Source: an uncultured bacterium (GTDB lineage Bacteria > Bipolaricaulota > Bipolaricaulia > RBG-16-55-9 > DRJF01). Taken from it: a stretch of DNA of 45,018 nt. Shown piece after piece: positions 5,624-45,018 of this stretch. Each line of letters begins with the position of its first letter. The first letter of the stretch is position 1. A model generated the notes under the pieces. That model searched no databases, had not been told where the DNA came from, and saw nothing but the letters and a program-made list of their open reading frames with translations. Position numbers and translations under genes: made by a program. Location: the NCBI GenBank assembly GCA_913053845.1, contig CAJXGD010000016.1, positions 1 to 45,018 on the forward strand. Reading direction: 5' to 3'.

Positions 5624-6750
5624 GAATCACCGCCGTCAAGGTCAAGTTCTTGGAATATCCCCTCAAGAGTGCCTTCTATCCCGTCTGGCTCCCGGGCTAT
5701 GCGCAGACGTTCCACCGGCTCAACCTGGTGATCTTGGAGACCGACGAAGGGATCACCGGCTACTCAGCCGGTCCGGCCTTCGGGACCGAGGCGGCCGGCT
5801 TGGAGAAGCTGCTGTCCCCTTTTCTGCTGGGCCGCGACCCCTGCAACGTGGAGGAGATCGTGCAGATCCTCCGCTCGGCCACCTTCTTGGGCCTACGCCT
5901 CTGGTACATCGAGCCGGCCCTGTGGGACATCCTGGGCAAGGTCGCCGGCCTACCCGTTTATAAACTACTGGGCGGCTACCAAGACAGGATCCGGGCCTAT
6001 GCCAGCACCGGCGAGCTAAGGGAGGTTGAGCAGCGGCTGGAGTACGTGGAGCAAGTCCAACAGTTGGGGATCACGGCGGTGAAGCTGCGCTTCCACTCGT
6101 CGGACTGGCGTGAGGATCTGAAGGTAGCCCGTGCGGTCCGCGAGCGCTTTCCGGAGATGGAGCTGATGGTGGACGCCAACATGGGCTGGCGGGTGGCCGG
6201 CCTGGGTCAGGCTCCCCGCTGGGAGGTCGCCACCGCCGCCAGGGTCGCTCAAGAGCTGGCGGAGCTAGGGGTCTTGTGGCTGGAAGAGCCCCTGGATCAG
6301 CATGACTACCAGGGCTACCGCCTCCTGCGGCAGAAGGTGACCCTTCCCTTAGCAGGTGGGGAGTTCAACTCGGACCTGCATGAGTTCCGCGAGCTGGTGC
6401 GCCAGGAGTGTCTGGACATCCTGCAGCCCGATGCCACCATCTCCGGGGGCATTCTGATGGCCAAGAAGATCGCGGTGCTGGCCGAGGCTCACCATCTGGG
6501 CTTCGCACCGCACACCTGGACCAACGGGCTGGGTCTGGCGATCAACTTGCAGGTCATGGGTGCCGTGCCGAATTGCCAGTGGGTCGAGTGGCCCTACGAG
6601 CCGCCGGGTTGGACACCTGAAGCCCGTGACTTTCTCCTGAAAGAGCCCATCCAAGTTGCCAGCGACGGCACCATCGAGATCCCTCAGGCGCCGGGGCTGG
6701 GCGTGGAGATCGCCCCCGAAGCCCTCGAGGAGTACGGTAGACTCATTTAG
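5620..6750 (+). CDS. Enolase-superfamily enzyme (mandelate racemase/muconate lactonizing type)
   Basis: This 376-residue protein starts at a GTG overlapping the SCP2 stop by 4 nt. It has the N-terminal capping domain and a C-terminal barrel with metal ligands D185 (MVDANMGW), E222 (WLEEPLD) and E248 (GGEFNSD). Acid/base residues are the K155-L-R157 pair, D271 (LQPDATISGG) and H298 (FAPHTW). The family abstracts a proton alpha to a carboxylate in dehydration, racemization or cycloisomerization. The second position of the usual K-x-K pair is Arg, so the sub-family is uncertain; an acid-sugar dehydratase is one possibility. Operon context links it to the dehydrogenases upstream. Confidence 0.85.
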   Translation: MRITAVKVKFLEYPLKSAFYPVWLPGYAQTFHRLNLVILETDEGITGYSAGPAFGTEAAGLEKLLSPFLLGRDPCNVEEIVQILRSATFLGLRLWYIEPALWDILGKVAGLPVYKLLGGYQDRIRAYASTGELREVEQRLEYVEQVQQLGITAVKLRFHSSDWREDLKVARAVRERFPEMELMVDANMGWRVAGLGQAPRWEVATAARVAQELAELGVLWLEEPLDQHDYQGYRLLRQKVTLPLAGGEFNSDLHEFRELVRQECLDILQPDATISGGILMAKKIAVLAEAHHLGFAPHTWTNGLGLAINLQVMGAVPNCQWVEWPYEPPGWTPEARDFLLKEPIQVASDGTIEIPQAPGLGVEIAPEALEEYGRLI

Positions 6751-7864: not shown

Positions 7865-9439
7865 TTAGTAACCTTGTGCGCAGCCGTCGCTGCGCGGCTC
7901 GGAGCCACCCCATAGGCTGCCGCTTGCCGGATCAATGATGATAGCCTGGGCTCCACCAAAGCTGCCATCTCCCGCGATCAGCTCGTGCCCTCTGGCACGC
8001 AGGCCTTCCTGTGCCTCTGGAGAGACCCCGGCTTCCACAGCGACCTGCCGGCCTTCAAAGAAACGAAAGCGCGGTGCCTCGATGGCCTCCTGCAGGCTCA
8101 TGCCTTGATCTAGCAAATTGCACAAGAGTTGCAGATGGCCCTGAGGTTGCATGAAGCCCCCCACCACGCCAAAGCTCAGCCAGGGCAGCTTATTTTGAAA
8201 GGCCATCGCGGGAATGATGGTATGATAAGGGCGCTTGCGCGGCTCCAAGCGATTTGCCTGCTGGGGATCGAGCGAGAAGAGACTGCCGCGGTTCTGCAGC
8301 ACGATGCCGGTATCGCCCACGGTGATTCCCGATCCAAAAGGCATAAACAAACTCCCGATGAATGAGACCACGTTGCGTTGCTCATCTACCACGGTGATGT
8401 AGGCCGTATCGCCTTCCGGTGAGCCATAAGTCACGTTGAGACCGGCATTCTCACCGACGAGCTTGCGTCGCTGCGCGGCATACTCTTGGGATAGCAACTG
8501 CTCTATAGGGATATCGGCGAACTCCGGATCGGCGATATAATGCCGACCATCGGCGAAGGCCAACTTCATCACCTCGATGAGCTGGTGGAGATATGCCGCC
8601 GAATTATGCTCCAGCTGAGAGAGTTCAAAGCCTGCCGCGATATTGAGCGCTAACAGGGCGATCAGGCCCTGCCCGTTGGGAGGAAGCTCATAGACGGTGA
8701 CGCCGCGGTAGTCGGTGTGGATGGGTTTTACCCAATTAACCTGGTGCTCCTTCAGATCGCTCAGCGAGAGCAGACCGTCATGTTTTTGGAATTCGCGCAC
8801 GATCTCTGCGGCGATCTCGCCCTCGTAAAACGCTCCGAGGCCCTCGTGGGCCAGCAGCGCGAAGGTGCGTGCCAGTGCAGGATTCTTGAATATCGTGGCG
8901 GGGCGAGGCGCCTGACCATTTGGCAGATAGGTCTTGGCTGTGTTCTCCTCACGGGCCAGCTTGGCGGCTAAGCTCTGCCAACGCCGGCCGATCCTCTCGG
9001 AGACGGGGAAACCATTTTGAGCGTAGTCAATGGCCGGTTGGAGCAGTTGGTCCAATGAGCGAGTCCCAAAGCGCTTCAGCAGCACCGCCCAGCCTCGGGG
9101 TGCACCGGGAACGGTCACGCTCCAGATACCCTCGGTCGGCATCTCGGTAAAGCCCCGCTGGCGGTAGTCTTGCAGAGATGCTTGTGCGGGTGCGCGCCCA
9201 CTGGCATTGAGCCCATAGAGCTGTCGCTCTCGGGCCTGATACACTAGCGCGAAGAGATCTCCGCCTATGCCGATGCTCATCGGCTCGACGACGTTCAGCA
9301 CTGCGGCGGTCGCGATCGCGGCATCCACAGCGTTGCCTCCGCTTTTTAGGATCTCCAGGCCCGCTTGGACCGCCAGCGGCTGGCTGGTGGCGATCATCGC
9401 CTGGGGACTCATAGTTGTCGGACGGTTAAAGCCTTTCAC
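7865..9439 (-). CDS. ggt: Gamma-glutamyltransferase (Ntn hydrolase)
   Basis: The 524-residue protein starts at GTG 9439 (VKGFNRPTT), with GGGAGG seven nt upstream. The frame is open further back but overlaps the permease gene. The autoprocessing/catalytic threonine is T345 in GDTAYITVVD, where most family members have DTTHxSVVD. GGNAVDAAIA, the NGxGLIAL segment and the C-terminal GGFMQPQGHLQ and GGAQAI blocks are typical. The enzyme cleaves gamma-glutamyl bonds, as in glutathione. No signal peptide is seen, so it may work in the cytoplasm. It sits between peptide permeases and an aminopeptidase. Confidence 0.92.
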   Translation of the reverse strand: MKGFNRPTTMSPQAMIATSQPLAVQAGLEILKSGGNAVDAAIATAAVLNVVEPMSIGIGGDLFALVYQARERQLYGLNASGRAPAQASLQDYRQRGFTEMPTEGIWSVTVPGAPRGWAVLLKRFGTRSLDQLLQPAIDYAQNGFPVSERIGRRWQSLAAKLAREENTAKTYLPNGQAPRPATIFKNPALARTFALLAHEGLGAFYEGEIAAEIVREFQKHDGLLSLSDLKEHQVNWVKPIHTDYRGVTVYELPPNGQGLIALLALNIAAGFELSQLEHNSAAYLHQLIEVMKLAFADGRHYIADPEFADIPIEQLLSQEYAAQRRKLVGENAGLNVTYGSPEGDTAYITVVDEQRNVVSFIGSLFMPFGSGITVGDTGIVLQNRGSLFSLDPQQANRLEPRKRPYHTIIPAMAFQNKLPWLSFGVVGGFMQPQGHLQLLCNLLDQGMSLQEAIEAPRFRFFEGRQVAVEAGVSPEAQEGLRARGHELIAGDGSFGGAQAIIIDPASGSLWGGSEPRSDGCAQGY

Positions 9440-23718: not shown

Positions 23719-24636
23719 ATGGCTGCCATTAAAGGTGTACCCCATCCTTTCCCGTATCAAGGCAGCAAACGACAGTTGGCCAGTCAGATCGTGGCTTGTA
23801 TTCCTCATCGTACTTACAGGCTTATTGAACCCTTCGTTGGCTCTGGGGCAATCACCTTAGCCACTGCATACCTCCATCGCACTTCCCGGTTTGTCATCAG
23901 TGACCTTCATCAACCCCTGATAACCCTTTGGCATTCAATCATCTATGATCCTGACCAGTTGGCGGACCGATACGAAGACCTCTGGAACCGACAGCAAGGT
24001 CGGCAAAGAGAGTTTTATGATGAAGTTAGGGTTTTGTTCAACCAGACCCATGAGCCGCATTATTTTCTCTACCTTCTAGCTAGGTGCGTAAAGGCGGCCG
24101 TCCGCTACAATGCCGAGGGCCAGTTCAATAACAGCCCCGATAATCGTCGTTTGGGAATGCGCCCTAAAACAATGCGCCGGAATATCCTTAATAGTTCCCA
24201 ACTCCTTCGAGGGAAGCTCCAAGTGTTATGTCAGGATTATAGGGAGACGCTTAAAACGGCTGATTCTCATGATGTGGTCTACCTGGACCCTCCCTACCAG
24301 GGGGTGACAAATAGTCGCGACCGAAGATATTACAGTGGCATCAACTTTCAAACCTTCGTCAGAACTCTCGAAGATCTCAATTCCCGTCAGATTCGCTTCA
24401 TCATTAGTTATGACGGTCGCACCGGGTCGAAAGTTCATGGTCAACTCCTCCCCAAACATTTAGAGTTGATACACAAGGAAATCAAAGTGGGTCGCTCCGC
24501 CCAAGCCACGCTGCTGGGAAAGGAAGATACCACCGTTGAATCCCTATATCTTTCCAGGGTGCTAATCGAACGAATAGGTGCAATACCAGCAGCCCTCACA
24601 GCAGCCTTTTCTGAGAGCCTCTTTATAAAAACATGA
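23719..24636 (+). CDS. DNA adenine (N6) methyltransferase, Dam/D12 class
   Basis: A 305-residue protein. Motif X is FPYQGSKRQLASQI (11-24). The AdoMet site is EPFVGSGAITLA (37-48), ISDLHQPLI follows, and the catalytic motif IV is DPPYQG (190-195). It methylates adenine at a short site. Its stop overlaps the start of the HNH endonuclease gene (ATGA), so the two form a restriction-modification unit, methylase first. The GC content is lower than that of the flanking genes. The recognition site cannot be deduced; GATC is a common target in this class but is also abundant in the window. Confidence 0.9.
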   Translation: MAAIKGVPHPFPYQGSKRQLASQIVACIPHRTYRLIEPFVGSGAITLATAYLHRTSRFVISDLHQPLITLWHSIIYDPDQLADRYEDLWNRQQGRQREFYDEVRVLFNQTHEPHYFLYLLARCVKAAVRYNAEGQFNNSPDNRRLGMRPKTMRRNILNSSQLLRGKLQVLCQDYRETLKTADSHDVVYLDPPYQGVTNSRDRRYYSGINFQTFVRTLEDLNSRQIRFIISYDGRTGSKVHGQLLPKHLELIHKEIKVGRSAQATLLGKEDTTVESLYLSRVLIERIGAIPAALTAAFSESLFIKT

Positions 24637-25370
24637 GCAAAGAGCAATACACCAGAGAGATAATCGCAAAGGTGGAAACCATCCAAGGGAAACGCTCCCG
24701 ATTAGTCGTTGAGCACATACTCAAGCATGGCAGCATTACCACTGAGAATCTCAAGAATTATGGCTACGAGCACCCTCCAAGGGCGATCAAGGATGTTCGT
24801 GATCAAGGTCTCCCGTTAGAAATGTTCTGGACAAAAGACTCCACTGGAAAACGAATAGCAGGTTATCGTTTTGGTGACCCCTCCAAAATAAGGCATGACC
24901 GCCTTGGAGGTAGAGTCGTGTTTTCCAAGAAGTTTAAGAGCGAAGTTATCCACGCCAATACTTCTAAGTGCAGTATATGTAATACTAAGTTTGAAGTACG
25001 TTACTTCCAGGTTGATCATCGTATACCTTATGAGATATTAGGGGATAAGGATGATGATGTTAGAGACGTTGCTGATTACATGCCTTTGTGTGGTTCGTGT
25101 AATAGGGCTAAATCGTGGTCTTGCGAACACTGCGAGAATTGGCAGCAGCATAAAGATCCAAAGACATGCATGTCGTGTTACTGGGCAGATCCAACGCACT
25201 ATACGCATGTGGCAATGAAAGAAGTTCGCCGACTTGCTTTACTCTGGGAAGAAGCGGAAGTTTCAGAATACGACGCACTTTCCAGCCGAGCTGTCAATCA
25301 AGATGAAACACTACCAGAATTCGTGAAAAGTGTGCTACGGGCTCATCTAAAGCAGGGAAAACGTGGATGA
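24633..25370 (+). CDS. HNH-type restriction endonuclease
   Basis: A 245-residue protein. Residues about 20-85 resemble a winged-helix reader (SRLVVEHILKHGSITTENLKNYGY split). The HNH nuclease core follows: C113-x2-C116, FQVDHRIPYE with H129, and LCGSCNRAKSW with C153, C156 and N157. It is followed by two more CxxC pairs (C164/C167, C179/C182) that probably bind zinc. Coupling to the Dam-class methylase points to a type II restriction enzyme. A 60-bp stretch at 25021-25080 has about 37% GC against about 70% at 25981-26040 in the next gene, which supports horizontal acquisition. Confidence 0.85.
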   Translation: MSKEQYTREIIAKVETIQGKRSRLVVEHILKHGSITTENLKNYGYEHPPRAIKDVRDQGLPLEMFWTKDSTGKRIAGYRFGDPSKIRHDRLGGRVVFSKKFKSEVIHANTSKCSICNTKFEVRYFQVDHRIPYEILGDKDDDVRDVADYMPLCGSCNRAKSWSCEHCENWQQHKDPKTCMSCYWADPTHYTHVAMKEVRRLALLWEEAEVSEYDALSSRAVNQDETLPEFVKSVLRAHLKQGKRG

Positions 25371-30681: not shown

Positions 30682-31734
30682 ATGACAGAGGTGACTTTGG
30701 AGCGAGCTCAGGCTCAGCCGAGAGAGGATAGGGCTCACCTAGGGCGAGGGCGGTTTATCGGCATACTGGCCGGCATCATCGTCAGTGTGCTGGTGCTCGA
30801 TCTAGCCTTGGTGATGCACATCAGCAATCAACAGCGGGCACAGTTCGCTAAGCGGGCCGAATACCAAGTGCTGCGCTCGGCCAGCATGATCGTCTGGTAT
30901 ATCAAGCAAGGGGACACCGTCGGTTTGACCAACCTGCTCCAGTACTCGGTGATCGGCGATCAGCTCTACGCTCAGGTGGTGGTCAATGGCCAGGTGATCG
31001 CCGAGCGGTTGGCCCCCAAACTGGGACACCTGACACTCCCTATTGAGCCGCTCCCGGCGGCGACCGCCGAAGAGCACAGCGTGCACCGGCTCTTTAACGG
31101 CGAGTCCTATCTGGACCTACGGCTAGGGCTGACGAGCTTAACTTCCGGAGGCGGGGCTCAGTCGCGCCGTTCAGCCCCAACGATCAGCTATCTGCGCGTG
31201 GGCTATTCGCTCACCTCGGTAGAGCTGGCTCTCAGGCGTTCTTCCTTGTTCATCGTGGGCACCAGCACCCTGCTGCTCCTGGTCATCGGCCTGCTCTTCT
31301 GGCTGACGACCAGAATCTGGGGAGGAATCCATCTGAGGCCACCTGCGACAGCGCCCGGCTTGATTCCGGAGGGAGAACAGGTCCTCACCGCCAATGGTGG
31401 TGGCCTGGCCAGCCCGGAGCCACTGCGCCAGGTGCTGGAGCTGAGAGGAGGCCAAGTGACGGTGGACCGCCGGCGCAAGCTGATCGCCTTCGACGGACAA
31501 CAGGTGTCGCTTTCGCCCAAAGAATATAAGCTGTTTATGCAACTGGCCTCCGATCCGGAGCGCATCTTCTCTGACTCGGAGATCCTCGCTGAAGTCTGGA
31601 GCGCCAATAGCGCGGCCACCAGCAAGGATGTCAAACAGTACATCTACTTTTTGCGGCGCAAGCTGGGCGATGATCCCGAAGCGCCTGGCTTCATCGAAAC
31701 GGTACGAGGACATGGCTATAAGCTGGCTATATAA
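30682..31734 (+). CDS. Membrane-bound one-component regulator: two TM helices, extracytoplasmic sensor, C-terminal OmpR-type winged helix
   Basis: A 350-residue protein. TM1 covers about 25-47 and TM2 about 186-208. The roughly 140-residue loop between them lies outside the cytoplasm and looks like the sensor of a histidine kinase (YQVLRSASMIVWYIKQGD, YAQVVVNGQVIAERL). After a 45-residue linker, residues 255-350 form an OmpR/PhoB winged helix: VSLSPKEYKLFMQLASDPE, FSDSEILAEVW, KQYIYFLRRKLGDD and VRGHGYKLAI. No HAMP, kinase or receiver domain is present. ToxR/CadC proteins place the winged helix at the N-terminus, so this order is reversed. The target may be the exported protein immediately downstream. 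Confidence 0.85.
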   Translation: MTEVTLERAQAQPREDRAHLGRGRFIGILAGIIVSVLVLDLALVMHISNQQRAQFAKRAEYQVLRSASMIVWYIKQGDTVGLTNLLQYSVIGDQLYAQVVVNGQVIAERLAPKLGHLTLPIEPLPAATAEEHSVHRLFNGESYLDLRLGLTSLTSGGGAQSRRSAPTISYLRVGYSLTSVELALRRSSLFIVGTSTLLLLVIGLLFWLTTRIWGGIHLRPPATAPGLIPEGEQVLTANGGGLASPEPLRQVLELRGGQVTVDRRRKLIAFDGQQVSLSPKEYKLFMQLASDPERIFSDSEILAEVWSANSAATSKDVKQYIYFLRRKLGDDPEAPGFIETVRGHGYKLAI

Positions 31735-40973: not shown

Positions 40974-41131
40974 TCAAAACATCTCGTCCAAGGGGATGCT
41001 CACACCGACCAAGAGCGGCGAGCTCAACACCTGACTTTTCTTATAACGCGCTGCCTGCCCAGGGTGAGTACCTTAATCATCTGTGTCTCCGGATCGACCA
41101 GCCAGTATTCTCTTACTTCTAATTGTAACAT
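40974..41131 (-). pseudogene. Frameshifted C-terminal remnant of a Uma2-family (DUF820) nuclease-like protein
   Basis: On the minus strand from 41131, the frame reads MLQLEVREYWLVDPETQ then MIKVLTLGRQRVIRKV. REYWLVDPE is the hallmark of the Uma2 C-terminal half. After a one-base shift, the rest continues QVLSSPLLVGVSIPLDEMF with a TGA at 40976-40974, matching the family's SPLLxGLxxPLxxLF end. The N-terminal half is missing. Uma2 genes often occur in many decaying copies. The rest of 40846-41208 holds only the flanking promoters. Confidence 0.65.
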
Positions 41132-41171
41132 ATCGCCCTGCGTAGTTCAAAGGCCGGCGGTCACCTCATGC

Positions 41172-41200
41172 TTGACAACTAAGATACCTTGTGTTACAAT
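41172..41200 (+). promoter_or_regulatory. Promoter of padR
   Basis: A perfect TTGACA (41172-41177), a 17-bp spacer and TACAAT (41195-41200). The -10 box ends 8 nt before ATG 41209, so transcription should start at or within 2 nt of the start codon. Confidence 0.8.
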
Positions 41201-41208
41201 GCTACGCT

Positions 41209-41574
41209 ATGGCTTTGGACAAATGGATCGCTCAGCTGAGGAAGGGCCTGCTGGAGATGGGCATCATGCTGCTGTTGCGCGAGGGCGCCCGCTATGGCCT
41301 GGAGATCATCCAGACCTTGGAGGAGCGCTCCGGCCTGGTGATCACCGAGGGGACGATCTATCCCCTGCTGGGCCGGCTCAAGTCCGAAGGGCTCTTGGAG
41401 GCCGAGTGGGTGGCTTCTGACGCCGGCCATCCGCGCAAGTATTACCGGCTCAGTGCGCAGGGCCGCCGGCAACTGCTGCGGATGATCCAGCATTGGCGTG
41501 GCTTCAGCGCCGCCTTGGATCAACTGATCGCCGAGAGTGAGGAGATGAGCTATGCCGAGCGCGCTGGCGGCTGA
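41209..41574 (+). CDS. PadR-family transcriptional regulator
   Basis: A 121-residue protein from ATG 41209. The winged helix is clear: MGIMLLLREGARYGLEII, ITEGTIYPLLGRLKSEGLLE and the wing GHPRKYYRLSAQGRRQL. PadR proteins usually repress membrane-stress or transporter genes and often regulate themselves. No Shine-Dalgarno sequence exists and the promoter predicts a leaderless mRNA. The stop overlaps the next gene by 23 nt, a standard padR plus membrane-partner pair. Confidence 0.92.
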   Translation: MALDKWIAQLRKGLLEMGIMLLLREGARYGLEIIQTLEERSGLVITEGTIYPLLGRLKSEGLLEAEWVASDAGHPRKYYRLSAQGRRQLLRMIQHWRGFSAALDQLIAESEEMSYAERAGG

Positions 41575-42223
41575 AGCCCAACGACTATTGGATGACTATC
41601 TAGCGCGGCTGGACCGTGCCCTACGCCGGGTTCCCCAGTCGCAGCGCGATGAGATTCGCGTGGAGATCGAGAGCCATCTGCGCGGCCGGCTGGCCGAATT
41701 GCCAGAGCCGGTGACCGCCGCTGACACGCTCGATGTGCTCTACAAGCTGGGCGAGCCAGAAAGCTATGTGCCGCTCTATCTGACCGAGAGCTATCTCAGC
41801 CAGGGATTTCAAAAGGCCTCGCCGCCGCTGCTGGCCAAGGGCGTGGGCCGCTGGTTGGGTTCGGCAGCGCTGAGTTACTTATACTCGTTCCCATTCTTTT
41901 TGCTTTATTTAGTTTCGTTTCTCCTGCTTGCATTGGGCATTGGCAAACTTATTGCTCCTGACGATGTTCGGGTTGCATACACCAGCAACAAAGGGAGAAA
42001 TATCTCAGTCGCGTTTAATTACCCTGCGGAGTCACAGGGCCTACATCCATCCTCAGCGAACTCGGCGGATGGCGATCCCTCCACTGATATCCAGGGACAC
42101 GAGCTGCTGGGGTCTTGGGCGGTTCCTGCCACGTTGGGACTAGGCTTCCTCATGGCGCTGGGCGCGACGGTGCTGTTGCGCCGGATGACCCGGCGAGCGC
42201 TGAGGAGGCGCTTTGAGGATTGA
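41552..42223 (+). CDS. HAAS-domain membrane protein, PadR partner
   Basis: A 223-residue protein from ATG 41552. Residues 1-80 are the helical HAAS/DUF1700-like domain (LDDYLARLDRALRRVPQ, IRVEIESHLRGRLAELPEP, LYKLGEPESYVPLYL) found beside PadR genes. TM segments follow at about 108-130 (LYSFPFFLLYLVSFLLLALGI split) and 188-208, separated by a loop of about 55 residues that may be extracytoplasmic. The N-terminal domain probably senses or sequesters PadR at the membrane (inference). The middle of the gene (41880-42050) is noticeably AT-richer than both ends. Confidence 0.75.
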   Translation: MPSALAAEAQRLLDDYLARLDRALRRVPQSQRDEIRVEIESHLRGRLAELPEPVTAADTLDVLYKLGEPESYVPLYLTESYLSQGFQKASPPLLAKGVGRWLGSAALSYLYSFPFFLLYLVSFLLLALGIGKLIAPDDVRVAYTSNKGRNISVAFNYPAESQGLHPSSANSADGDPSTDIQGHELLGSWAVPATLGLGFLMALGATVLLRRMTRRALRRRFED

Positions 42224-42320
42224 GCTGCCAGCTTCAACTATGCAATGCAAGGAATAATGTCTATCGGGACAAAGAGGTGACAGGTAGCTACGGGTCCCTC
42301 TGGGACAACCAGGCTGCCGG

Positions 42321-43022
42321 ATGATGAAATGTTCTGTGTGTGATACTGTTACTCAAATCCCGTGTATCTTCAGCGCGCTCGAGGGAAAAGGTGCCAAGCA
42401 GGTCAGGCAATGTTCAAGGAGCATCATGACGCGCCAAAATGAGTTGATCTTCCAACAGGGCAGCTCGGCCGCTGAGATTGCCCTGCTCTGCCGGGGCAAG
42501 ATGCAGTTGGCCGGTCGTACCTCATTAGGACAGCGTCTGTTACTGCGGTTCGTCCGTTCCGGCGAGCTCTTGGGCACGGCCAGCCTGGCGGGCCGGCCAA
42601 GATATGCTGTCTGTGCGCTGGCCTTCGAAGAGGCTCAGGTCAGGTTTATTCACCATGAGAATCTGGATCGCTTATGCGCATCCTACCCTCCAGTAGCTAA
42701 AGTACTGATCGGCCAACTGGCAGCGGCCCAGTATCGGGTCTGCCGCCAGGTGGGCCGGCTGGCCGGGGCCAACGCCCGCGAGCGGGTGGTGCAGCTCCTG
42801 CTGTCGCTCTGCGAGGCGTATGGCTACGAAGCGGAAGAGGGAAGCTGGCAGGTTGATCTGCGGCTGACCGAGAGTGTCTTGGGAGAGATGATCGGCCTCT
42901 CACGGGCGACAATTAGTCGCGAGCTGAGCCGATTGAGGAGAGAAGAATTGATCGAGCGGACAGGGCAGACAATCATGATTCAGGATAAGCACGAACTAAA
43001 ACGGATTATCTCCAGTCTGTGA
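42321..43022 (+). CDS. Crp/Fnr-family regulator with N-terminal cysteine cluster
   Basis: A 233-residue protein. The N-terminus MMKCSVCDTVTQIPCIFSAL holds C4, C7 and C15, close to the C-x2-C-x5-C of FNR, and C31 follows. The cyclic-nucleotide-type beta-roll spans about 30-130. The helix-turn-helix is near the end (LTESVLGEMIGLSRATISRELSRL split), with wing RREELIERTG. The residue aligned with the fourth FNR ligand (C122 in E. coli) appears to be Arg, although nearby cysteines exist. It may sense oxygen, NO or redox through an Fe-S cluster, but this is uncertain. Its neighbour is a promoter with tandem boxes, probably its target. No clear ribosome site precedes the ATG. Confidence 0.85.
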   Translation: MMKCSVCDTVTQIPCIFSALEGKGAKQVRQCSRSIMTRQNELIFQQGSSAAEIALLCRGKMQLAGRTSLGQRLLLRFVRSGELLGTASLAGRPRYAVCALAFEEAQVRFIHHENLDRLCASYPPVAKVLIGQLAAAQYRVCRQVGRLAGANARERVVQLLLSLCEAYGYEAEEGSWQVDLRLTESVLGEMIGLSRATISRELSRLRREELIERTGQTIMIQDKHELKRIISSL

Positions 43023-43031
43023 TTATAGAGC

Positions 43032-43066
43032 ACATTTTTCTGTGTCGAAGCCGACATTTTTCTGTG
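43032..43066 (+). promoter_or_regulatory. Tandem 13-bp direct repeats, candidate activator sites
   Basis: ACATTTTTCTGTG occurs at 43032-43044 and again at 43054-43066, exactly 22 bp apart, about two helical turns. The first copy is extended to CACA-N6-TGTG symmetry. Both lie just upstream of the -35 box at 43078, a position suited to an activator such as the Crp/Fnr protein encoded directly upstream. Confidence 0.6.
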
Positions 43067-43077
43067 CGCGGCGAGCA

Positions 43078-43106
43078 TAGACAAGTGAGGTGGGAGGGTA
43101 TATGAT
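43078..43106 (+). promoter_or_regulatory. Promoter of the small secreted-peptide gene
   Basis: TAGACA (43078-43083), a 17-bp spacer and TATGAT (43101-43106). The leader to GTG 43145 is about 32 nt and carries AAGGAGG. Confidence 0.65.
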
Positions 43107-43144
43107 GGAAGCATTCTACCATAAGGAGAAAGGAGGTGCACAAA

Positions 43145-43285
43145 GTGAGAAAAACCATTGCGGTGTTGCTGCTGAGCGCGATGTTGGTAAGCATAGGAGG
43201 GTTAGCTGGGGCAATGGCTTCAACTCCGGTACCGGTGGCGGCTGGTAACATGGCTCCGACTCCTGTACTGAATGGCAACGGCTAA
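43145..43285 (+). CDS. 46-residue secreted peptide, unknown function
   Basis: A small gene starting at GTG 43145 with AAGGAGG eight nt upstream. The product begins MRKTIAVLLLSAMLVSIGG and LAGAMA, a textbook signal peptide with cleavage expected after about residue 25. The remaining tail of about 21 residues is STPVPVAAGN then MAPTPVLNGNG, two loosely repeated TPV...GN halves. It has no cysteine and no known family was recognised. It has its own predicted promoter with upstream tandem boxes, and lies before a Tat-exported protein gene. It could be a signal, a precursor peptide or a structural peptide. Confidence 0.65.
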   Translation: MRKTIAVLLLSAMLVSIGGLAGAMASTPVPVAAGNMAPTPVLNGNG

Positions 43286-43335
43286 CAGTGGCGTCCTGGT
43301 GCCTTTTACCTGCTGGACGATCACGATTTGCTACG

Positions 43336-43351
43336 GTAACGCATGCGTTAC
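43336..43351. promoter_or_regulatory. 16-bp perfect palindrome
   Basis: GTAACGCATGCGTTAC is fully self-complementary, located between the small peptide gene and the Tat-protein gene. It could be a protein-binding site or a short RNA hairpin. Confidence 0.45.
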
Positions 43352-43382
43352 ATTTAAGATCTGCCCTTAAAGAGCAAGCAGT

Positions 43383-43427
43383 AGGGATATCCAGGAGTGA
43401 CTATGATAGTTGCTTCTGGGTATCCCT
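43383..43427 (+). promoter_or_regulatory. Stem-loop upstream of the Tat-protein gene
   Basis: AGGGATATCCAG (43383-43394) and CTGGGTATCCCT (43416-43427) form a 12-bp stem with one G-U pair. The loop contains a second small inverted repeat (ACTAT-G-ATAGT, 43400-43410). No T-run follows, so read-through with attenuation or mRNA protection is more likely than termination. A TATAAT at 43438-43443 may be a further promoter, but its start point would lie within the ribosome site. Confidence 0.5.
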
Positions 43428-43456
43428 AGTGTCCTACTATAATAGAGGAGGAATAT

Positions 43457-44014
43457 TTGATTATGAAGTATTCTGATTGTACCCGCAGAGATCTCTTCAA
43501 GCTGGGGGTAGGACTAGCAGGTGGGATGATAGCCGGAATCTATGCCCCAAGTGTTCAGGCTGCTGAGATAGATCTAAACGCTCTAGTCAACAAGCGGTTG
43601 GATCAATTGAGCGCGCAGCTAAAAGAGTTGTTCTCTGATAATCCCCAGCAATTCCTGGCGATAGTAGAAGCAGCCAGAGGTGCGTTTGCCGCTGGTCAGA
43701 CTCAAGGGATCAGCCAAAGCTTGGGGATACTCTCGACGTCCGCTTTTACATTCGCTCAGGCAGGCTTGTTGTCAGCTTTCCAGGTGGAGCGGCTGAAACT
43801 GGCCTTGACCTTGGTCATGGATGCCATTGTCCTCGCGACCCCCCTAGAGCAACGTAAAAAGTTGAGCATCTCCCTAGGTCTCTACCAAGCCGGCAAAGAG
43901 CAAGCTGTGGTTGGTCCATTCCTGGGAGATTGCCTCTCGACGTTCACAGTGTCAGGACCCCAGGGTAAGCATAAGCAATCCTTTAACTTGCAAGAGTGTC
44001 AAAGCGTCCTTTAA
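43457..44014 (+). CDS. Tat-exported protein of unknown function
   Basis: A 185-residue protein. TTG 43457 (MIMKYSD) is 5 nt after AGGAGG; ATG 43463 would be 11 nt after it, so TTG is slightly preferred. The twin-arginine signal is clear: TRRDLFKLGVGLAGGMIAG with a likely cleavage after SVQAA. The mature part is mostly helical (LNALVNKRLDQLSAQLKELF, IVEAARGAFAAGQTQGISQ, VERLKLALTLVMDAIVLATP) and ends in a segment with two cysteines (GDCLST, LQECQSVL). Tat export suggests folding or cofactor loading before transport. No domain was recognised. Confidence 0.75.
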   Translation: MIMKYSDCTRRDLFKLGVGLAGGMIAGIYAPSVQAAEIDLNALVNKRLDQLSAQLKELFSDNPQQFLAIVEAARGAFAAGQTQGISQSLGILSTSAFTFAQAGLLSAFQVERLKLALTLVMDAIVLATPLEQRKKLSISLGLYQAGKEQAVVGPFLGDCLSTFTVSGPQGKHKQSFNLQECQSVL

Positions 44015-44025
44015 GGGAGGTTCCC

Positions 44026-44091
44026 ATGCAGATCATACTCGTTGCAGTGGCGAGTTTATCCATATTGGCCTCGGGCTCCTGCATCAGATGA
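44026..44091 (+). CDS. 21-codon ORF, possible membrane or lipoprotein-like micropeptide
   Basis: ATG 44026 is preceded by GGGAGG five nt upstream and ends at TGA 44089-44091. The product MQIILVAVASLSILASGSC then IR is a single hydrophobic segment with a late cysteine. It fits neatly between the Tat-protein gene and the next gene. It may be a micropeptide, a coupling ORF or the broken start of a larger gene. Confidence 0.35.
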   Translation: MQIILVAVASLSILASGSCIR

Positions 44092-44131
44092 GAGCAGTCG
44101 TTAAGGCTAATAATTTAGGGAGGTGAGGGCA

Positions 44132-44914
44132 GTGCGTCCGATTCTTTGGTTGCTGGTAGCAGCATTAGCTATTTTGCTTGGTTGGCTAACCATCACTGGC
44201 CAAGCGCCACCTGCCAAGACGGGAGAGAAAGTCACTACACAACTAGCTCAATTGGAGCGAGGACAATGGCTGGTGGGACCGGGGATGCTCTTTGCCACTG
44301 TGCATCTCTCTACCTGGAGTGAACCTGGAGGCGAGCCTGTGAAGCGCAAGAAGGTGGTATTAATCAGCACTGCTACCAAAACCTTTCAGGGGCTGATCGT
44401 CGGAGTGGTGGGAGGCGCACACTGGTTGCGTCGTGGCCAAGAACTCTACCGACTCTTGCCCGGAAAGACAAAGGTAACGCAGGTGAAGGATCGGGCCGTG
44501 TGGCAAGCTCCCTTCGCTGGAAGCGCGCTCAGCGTCGCGGAATTCCTAGTAGGATTTCAGTTGGAACGCTATGATCTAGCTGGCAGCGCTTTGGTGCAGA
44601 GCGGCGAGAGGGAAATGACCCTGTTGGCTCGGCCTGATAGCCAGGCTCCTTACGCCCGGTTGGAGGTATATGTGGAGGCGCAGGGAAAGCTCCAGCATCT
44701 TAAGGCGTATGACACCTCCGGGAGGTTGCTTAAGACGGTGAAAATCCTGGCTTACACAGAGTTCCAACACACGCCACTTATCAAGCGGTTGGTTGTGGAA
44801 GATGTTCCAGACAGTTTACGAACGGAAGTGCTAATCCAAGGTCGGAAACCTCATTCCCTGCCCGATTTTGCCTTCACGCCTCAGACGATGTCCACACTAC
44901 AGATCGGTCGGTGA
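44132..44914 (+). CDS. Exported LolA-like outer-membrane lipoprotein-sorting protein
   Basis: A 260-residue protein from GTG 44132, eight nt after GGGAGG; GTG 44123 in the same frame would overlap that site. The N-terminus is a membrane signal (RPILWLLVAALAILLGWLTI). The body follows the LolA_like pattern: VVLISTATKTFQGLIVG, LYRLLPGKTKVTQVKD, FAGSALSVAEFLVGFQLERYDL and LEVYVEAQGKLQHLKAYDTSG. Such proteins are usually encoded with ABC or RND export systems and handle lipoproteins or other hydrophobic molecules. The partner may lie beyond the right edge. Confidence 0.65.
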   Translation: MRPILWLLVAALAILLGWLTITGQAPPAKTGEKVTTQLAQLERGQWLVGPGMLFATVHLSTWSEPGGEPVKRKKVVLISTATKTFQGLIVGVVGGAHWLRRGQELYRLLPGKTKVTQVKDRAVWQAPFAGSALSVAEFLVGFQLERYDLAGSALVQSGEREMTLLARPDSQAPYARLEVYVEAQGKLQHLKAYDTSGRLLKTVKILAYTEFQHTPLIKRLVVEDVPDSLRTEVLIQGRKPHSLPDFAFTPQTMSTLQIGR

Positions 44915-44922
44915 GAAGTGAC

Positions 44923-44947
44923 TGCTAACCCACCCCAAGAGTTAGCA
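44923..44947 (+). terminator. Hairpin after the LolA-like gene
   Basis: TGCTAAC (44923-44929) and GTTAGCA (44941-44947) form a perfect 7-bp stem with an 11-nt loop. There is no T-run, so termination is uncertain. Nothing else is recognised up to 45018. Confidence 0.35.
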
Positions 44948-45018
44948 TAGTATCGAGCGTTGGCGCTCTGAGCTGTATAGACGGATTACGCGCCAAGAAA
45001 CTGGTTCAGGTTGCGTTC

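Follow-up and report, generated by a model that had tools for sequence, protein, structure and literature searches.

The window analysed here is the complete contig CAJXGD010000016.1 (G000:C16; 45,018 bases), from a 2.3-Mb genome of an uncultured bacterium. Read from 5′ to 3′ on the forward strand, the locus of interest comprises genes for a PadR-type regulator, a HAAS membrane protein and a CRP/FNR-type regulator, two operator-like boxes, the gene for a peptide with a predicted secretion signal, a strong RNA hairpin, a gene for a predicted 183-aa exported protein, a 21-codon ORF, and a gene for a LolA_like protein. The contig ends after this last gene, at position 45018, and since the window is the whole contig nothing is visible beyond it. 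The original prediction began at 43023; the CRP-type gene and the PadR-HAAS pair further upstream also belong to the picture. Its description of a regulated locus of peptide-export type is a reasonable one, considering the gene order and the ABC-2 exporter present in a parallel locus of two other genomes (G009 and G014), but its redox and lipid components are unsupported, and nothing was found in favor of a lipid-linked product. An Rfam scan of positions 41000-45018 gave no RNA family match. A defence or phage origin was considered and rejected, as PADLOC and PHROGs returned no relevant match to the peptide or its partners.

The CRP/FNR-type regulator and its putative operator

The assignment of the gene at 42321-43022 (forward strand) to the Crp/Fnr family is borne out by matches to HTH_Crp_2 (PF13545, E 1.1e-16) and cNMP_binding (PF00027, E 8.5e-10). 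An FNR oxygen sensor carries three N-terminal cysteines and a fourth, central ligand. The window protein has cysteines in the N-terminal pattern C4-x2-C7-x7-C15, and when it is aligned by eye no cysteine falls at the usual fourth FNR site; against the Fnr model NF008365 it scores 51 bits with a cut-off of 228, its residue 3 lying on model residue 19. Redox control of the locus is unsupported, since the regulator offers N-terminal cysteines only. CRP/FNR-type matches occur in 14 places of the 2.3-Mb genome, where the family is expanded, and several are found in each of the 19 genomes of the order.

Downstream of this gene there are two identical 13-bp boxes (ACATTTTTCTGTG) on the forward strand, the first at 43032-43044, within CACA-N6-TGTG, and the second 22 bp downstream, at 43054-43066. 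None of 500 dinucleotide shuffles of the region contained a box pair with phasing as good, and no third copy could be found anywhere in the genome (2.3 Mb) when up to one mismatch was allowed. Since the tandem boxes, already recognized in the original prediction, are neither a product of chance nor present elsewhere, they fit a putative operator for one local, rather than global, regulator. As for the promoter, a candidate site is indeed present (TAGACA-17-TATGAT, 43078-43106, forward strand), but the call is weak: three consensus sites were found in the region versus 1.5 expected in shuffles, and an alternative −10 element, CATAGAC, can be recognized at 43077-43083. We also considered phased N6 palindromes as a common operator code, an idea that was dropped because the window gives only a weak signal (shuffle fraction 0.04) and there is no support for it elsewhere. 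In a genome of the same order but another family (G012), two GTTC-N6-GAAC sites are spaced at 22 bp, no better than in shuffles (0.40), and no significant phased repeat was detected there.

The peptide gene, its split frame and the predicted hairpin

The 46-residue secreted peptide described originally corresponds to an existing ORF with a Sec-type signal (43145-43285, forward strand; 46 codons from a GTG start, preceded by AGGAGG at 43131-43136), but this is only the front half of the peptide, whose C-terminus lies in the +1 frame (43272-43370). The signal, MRKTIAVLLLSAMLVSIGGLAGAMA-S, was read from the sequence, and the matching half is conserved in G012 (score 75 in the comparison of the signal half with the G012 peptide, reached by 0 of 5,000 shuffles). 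The +1 ORF in turn aligns with the C-terminal half of the G012 peptide (ITICYGNACVTFKI against IEICYQDICVRIKI; score 42, shuffle p 0.0004), and is the top match to the G012 C-terminus among 1,281 stop-free segments on both strands of the window. The distance from the stop of the C-terminal half to the RNA hairpin is 11-12 nt in both genomes, and the stretch of the precursor between the signal and the hairpin is not conserved with respect to G012. Outside the window the peptide motif was found only in G012 and in one antisense position in G090, inside a cysteine desulphurase gene, which was rejected as a chance match; only G000 (the genome of the window) and G012 are known to carry the peptide.

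Because a TGA precedes the +1 frame and a TAA ends the first frame, the shift is confined to the 14-nt overlap at 43272-43285. It may represent an assembly error, decay, or a programmed event, and with the frame shifted at this point this copy could yield the hairpin only through a bypass of the shift, or if the assembly is in error there. If the frameshift were instead a true mutation, the peptide gene would be a decayed remnant, and the working part of the locus would be reduced to the regulator and to the 183-aa and LolA-like proteins. The frame offset with its in-frame TAA agrees with such decay, as does the CRP gene of G012, which looks degenerate too; however, both halves keep open frames, the four hairpin cysteines are in register, and the box, the ribosome site and the RNA hairpin are intact, and we consider a remnant quite unlikely. 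The case also warns that small ORFs annotated with just one genome at hand may be halves of a peptide.

The 16-bp palindrome (GTAACGCATGCGTTAC, 43336-43351) is present as described, but it is not a separate part of the locus: it falls inside the hairpin codons of the +1 ORF, and its DNA is not conserved in G012, where the protein motif CYx[ND]xCV is kept. For these reasons it was rejected as an operator. Starting 11 nt after the peptide stop there is a strong RNA hairpin (43382-43428, forward strand; −41.8 kcal/mol, z −7.4), in which the stem-loop first given as 12 bp turns out to have a 22-bp stem, closed by a 3-nt loop. RNA hairpins of different sequence also lie 3′ of the small ORF in G012 (z −4.2), G014 (z −3.7) and G009 (z −4.0). 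No T-run follows the window hairpin; it could act as a partial terminator or as a 3′ stabiliser, favoring the first cistron. Its identification as a mobile repeat was rejected, since within the window only its own two arms match.

In a single-sequence AlphaFold2 model the +1 ORF folds as a β-hairpin with strands at residues 15-21 and 24-30 (block pLDDT ~77-85 in the strands, mean 74). Its four cysteines, C14, C20, C25 and C31, are laid out as C-x5-C-YGNA-C-x5-C, and in the modelled register, with a sum of 45, C20 is opposite C25 and C14 is opposite C31 (14+31 = 20+25 = 45), suggesting that two cross-strand disulphides are possible. The outer cysteine pair of the G012 peptide is out of register. 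A DsbA-like protein is present in G000, and VKOR was not found in this genome.

In its predicted secretion and in the two putative disulphides joining opposite strands, the peptide resembles the tachyplesin/polyphemusin/capitellacin type (PMC7761999, PMC6315362). The disulphides of capitellacin are Cys5-Cys18 and Cys9-Cys14 (PMC7761999); the turn of polyphemusin III (RRGCFRVCYRGFCFQRCR) is CYRGFC (PMC6315362), to be compared with CYGNAC in the window and CYQDIC in G012, each with a four-residue turn between the inner cysteines. The resemblance is one of form: unlike the animal hairpin peptides, the window peptide is bacterial, has x5 rather than x3 strands and is non-cationic, and no homology to those peptides was shown. 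A fold search with the hairpin model yielded nothing significant, with arenicin-3 among the matches at E 5.3.

The charge is also relevant to the possibility of a bacteriocin-like or signalling system, in which the hairpin would serve in antagonism or quorum sensing, with the exported proteins as immunity or receptor parts. Like bacteriocin and peptide-pheromone operons, the locus has a small structural gene first, followed by an RNA hairpin and by partner genes, and a local regulator. This layout points in that direction, together with the small secreted hairpin for which the model would allow two disulphides, the fast divergence of the precursor, and the ABC-2 exporter of the parallel G009/G014 locus. 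The regulator, however, is of CRP type, and where a bacteriocin operon would include a dedicated exporter and an immunity gene, no exporter, immunity family or receptor gene was found in the window, which ends at 45018. Furthermore, neither hairpin is clearly cationic in the manner of β-hairpin antimicrobial peptides: the window peptide has one Lys and no acidic residue (charge ~+1), and the G012 hairpin has 4 acidic and 2 basic residues (charge ~−2). As PADLOC and PHROGs also gave no match for the peptide or its partners, we regard a system of this kind as unlikely.

The putative exported partner proteins and the related loci

The gene that follows the RNA hairpin (43463-44014, forward strand) encodes a predicted exported protein of an orphan family. 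It is the Tat-exported 185-residue protein of the original prediction, but its length is 183 aa from the ATG at 43463, and 185 residues are obtained only from a TTG at 43457. The motif TRRDLFK followed by a hydrophobic stretch marks it as a putative Tat substrate, and TatC is present in G000 (E 1.0e-63); the Pfam TAT_signal model recognizes a single member of the family, which is not the window protein. Most members of the family carry an N-terminal signal, but Tat export does not hold as a defining feature, since RR signals are limited to the window and G003 members and the others look Sec-type. A profile built from 11 members matches 9 of 100 genomes, corresponding to 9 of the 19 genomes of the order and 0 of the 81 others of the phylum; members from the initial search match by construction, so that the informative part of this result is the absence. 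The family has no relative in Pfam, PDB or PHROG, and none among solved structures below E 0.4. A single-sequence model (mean pLDDT 58) has a four-helix core and a low-confidence C-terminal part, and a fold search with it retrieved generic helical bundles only, all above E 0.1. A cysteine pair near the C-terminus is common to most loci and is lost in genus g8. By eye, gluzincin-like metallopeptidase genes (HExxH-type) adjoin the 183-aa gene in G003, G006 and G010 (L036 31-1062; L035 4712-6751; L034 7411-8385), and in G001 a cysteine-rich exported 127-aa protein with no Pfam match is encoded directly upstream of the 183-aa homologue (L040 8130-8513).

The last gene (44132-44914, forward strand) encodes a LolA-like, predicted exported protein, as originally stated, with the start better placed at GTG 44132; its PF17131 score of 39.9 bits is above the curated cut-off of 30. 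The G012 neighbour is 39-43% identical (E 3.7e-41) and itself scores 29.6 bits with the same profile. The window gene differs from the LolA_like type in belonging to a putative peptide operon, with no Lol partner genes noticed nearby. The 21-codon ORF (44026-44091, forward strand) is also present and has a plausible ribosome site, but it is not conserved: the corresponding gap in G012, ~10 bp, leaves no room for it. Neither this ORF nor the palindrome is supported as a part of the locus.

Conservation of gene order in related genomes had been set beforehand as a test. A single short contig of G012 carries a CRP-type fragment, a 77-codon secreted peptide gene, an unrelated ORF, a 183-aa homologue and a LolA-like homologue, and thus keeps peptide, 183-aa and LolA-like genes behind a CRP-like fragment; this fragment matches HTH_Crp_2 below the cut-off (E 2e-4, 21.6 bits), is apparently frameshifted and looks degenerate. 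The core idea of a regulated secreted-peptide locus therefore survives this test, better than expected. A second test, of purifying selection on the small ORFs, did not refute it either: the peptide halves are conserved in G012 and the small ORF of the G009/G014 locus is under selection. The peptide, 183-aa and LolA-like genes occur together in G000 and G012; in G006, G010, G003 and G001 a 183-aa gene is present but the hairpin peptide is absent. Such differing neighbourhoods across genomes tell which parts are essential.

The parallel locus of G009 and G014 consists of a CRP gene, boxes, a tiny ORF, an RNA hairpin, genes for an ABC ATPase and an ABC-2 permease, and two genes of the 183-aa family, with no PadR-HAAS pair. 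Three boxes at exactly 23-bp spacing lie behind the CRP gene, at two promoters: a promoter-leader block of ~132 nt, which includes the 23-bp phased boxes and a stem adjoining the ribosome site, recurs ahead of the second 183-aa homologue with 80-91% identity (L037 4847-4979 and 7432-7564; L038 5534-5665 and 8102-8233). The tiny ORF (MVIIIIGDGWIIII[IV]IT; L037 4994-5047, L038 ~5677-5730) has 17 codons and is hydrophobic. Between the two genomes it shows 6 synonymous and 1 non-synonymous differences (pS 0.54, pN 0.025), and is under strong purifying selection; of 100 genomes of the phylum, none other than these two contains its core. The tiny peptide lacks both a signal and cysteines, and its homology to the window peptide could not be demonstrated. 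An Ile-rich attenuator leader was considered for this ORF; the conserved GDGW turn makes it less likely. The full-length CRP proteins of G014 and of the window share 31% identity, a value no higher than for other CRP paralogues, suggesting that the two arrangements may have arisen separately. A signal-peptide-only ORF (MKKARVIAVCTVGLVLALLLGGLPSI, L038 ~8230-8319) separates the second leader block from the second of the 183-aa homologues.

At the upstream end of the window locus, the PadR-type winged-helix regulator (41191-41574, forward strand; PF03551, E 6.4e-21) is followed by its partner, the HAAS membrane protein (41552-42223, forward strand; PF22564, E 6.5e-12). The pair is found directly upstream of the 183-aa family gene in three genomes (G000, G006 and G010); the window PadR is 60% identical to the PadR that precedes the 183-aa gene of G010 and 53% to that in G006, and the HAAS proteins are 43% and 40% identical, respectively. 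HAAS-PadR has been proposed as an envelope- or membrane-stress dyad (PMC11237479). As in that dyad, genes for a PadR winged helix-turn-helix protein and a HAAS membrane protein adjoin each other here and precede envelope genes, but no PspC, Toastrack or LiaF was found next to the window pair, and what comes after it is a CRP gene and a member of an orphan exported family. An alternative is that the locus is an envelope-stress module, in which PadR-HAAS and CRP sense membrane trouble and switch on envelope-maintenance proteins (183-aa and LolA-like), the peptide being an accessory or a signal. This is possible but doubtful in our judgment: it would account for the pair beside the 183-aa family in three genomes, for the stress role proposed for the dyad, and for the several genomes with a 183-aa gene and no hairpin peptide, whereas the boxes and the RNA hairpin center on the peptide gene, and G009 and G014 have a different small ORF at the same place, plus an exporter, without PadR-HAAS.

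Proposed explanation

To the reading that we prefer, a locally CRP-controlled operon for a secreted hairpin peptide and its periplasmic partners, we assign about an even chance. The CRP/FNR-type protein would bind the two phased boxes and control only the peptide promoter, and the first gene would give rise to a Sec-exported precursor of ~75 residues, the end of which would fold in the periplasm as a β-hairpin with disulphides C20-C25 and C14-C31 (numbering of the +1 ORF). The RNA hairpin 3′ of the peptide gene would keep peptide output above that of the downstream genes, and the helical 183-aa protein and the LolA-like protein, with its probable hydrophobic cavity, might transport the amphipathic peptide, protect it or position it in the envelope. 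Input from envelope stress may be added by the PadR-HAAS pair.

Counting in favor of a hairpin-peptide operon are the gene order of G012, the homology in two frames, the stop-to-hairpin spacing, the fold, the RNA hairpins, the unique boxes and the G009/G014 locus, as well as the restriction of the 183-aa family to the order, its place beside PadR-HAAS in two more genomes, and the DsbA-like protein and TatC of G000. Counting against it are the occurrence in two genomes only, the frameshift in the window, the degenerate CRP gene and missing phased repeat of G012, the 183-aa genes without the peptide elsewhere, the unconserved middle of the precursor, the missing VKOR, and the dissimilar peptide of G009/G014.

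An operon of this type would provide one of the least-known uncultured lineages with a secreted peptide system and an orphan exported family, and would show in bacteria a fold encountered so far chiefly in the defence peptides of animals; the locus also offers a clean pair for testing, a single regulator with its putative operator array. A more far-reaching version, in which the locus defines a new class of bacterial secreted peptides, with a tachyplesin-shaped, non-cationic, two-disulphide β-hairpin produced by programmed +1 frameshifting, a dedicated CRP-type regulator at its promoter and, to handle it in the periplasm, an orphan helical protein together with a LolA-like carrier, appears highly unlikely.

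Elsewhere in the window, inspection by eye identified a gene resembling DNA adenine methylases with an HNH-type gene behind it (23719-25370), perhaps a restriction-modification pair, and a membrane protein that carries a winged helix of OmpR type at its C-terminus (30682-31734), a possible one-component sensor.
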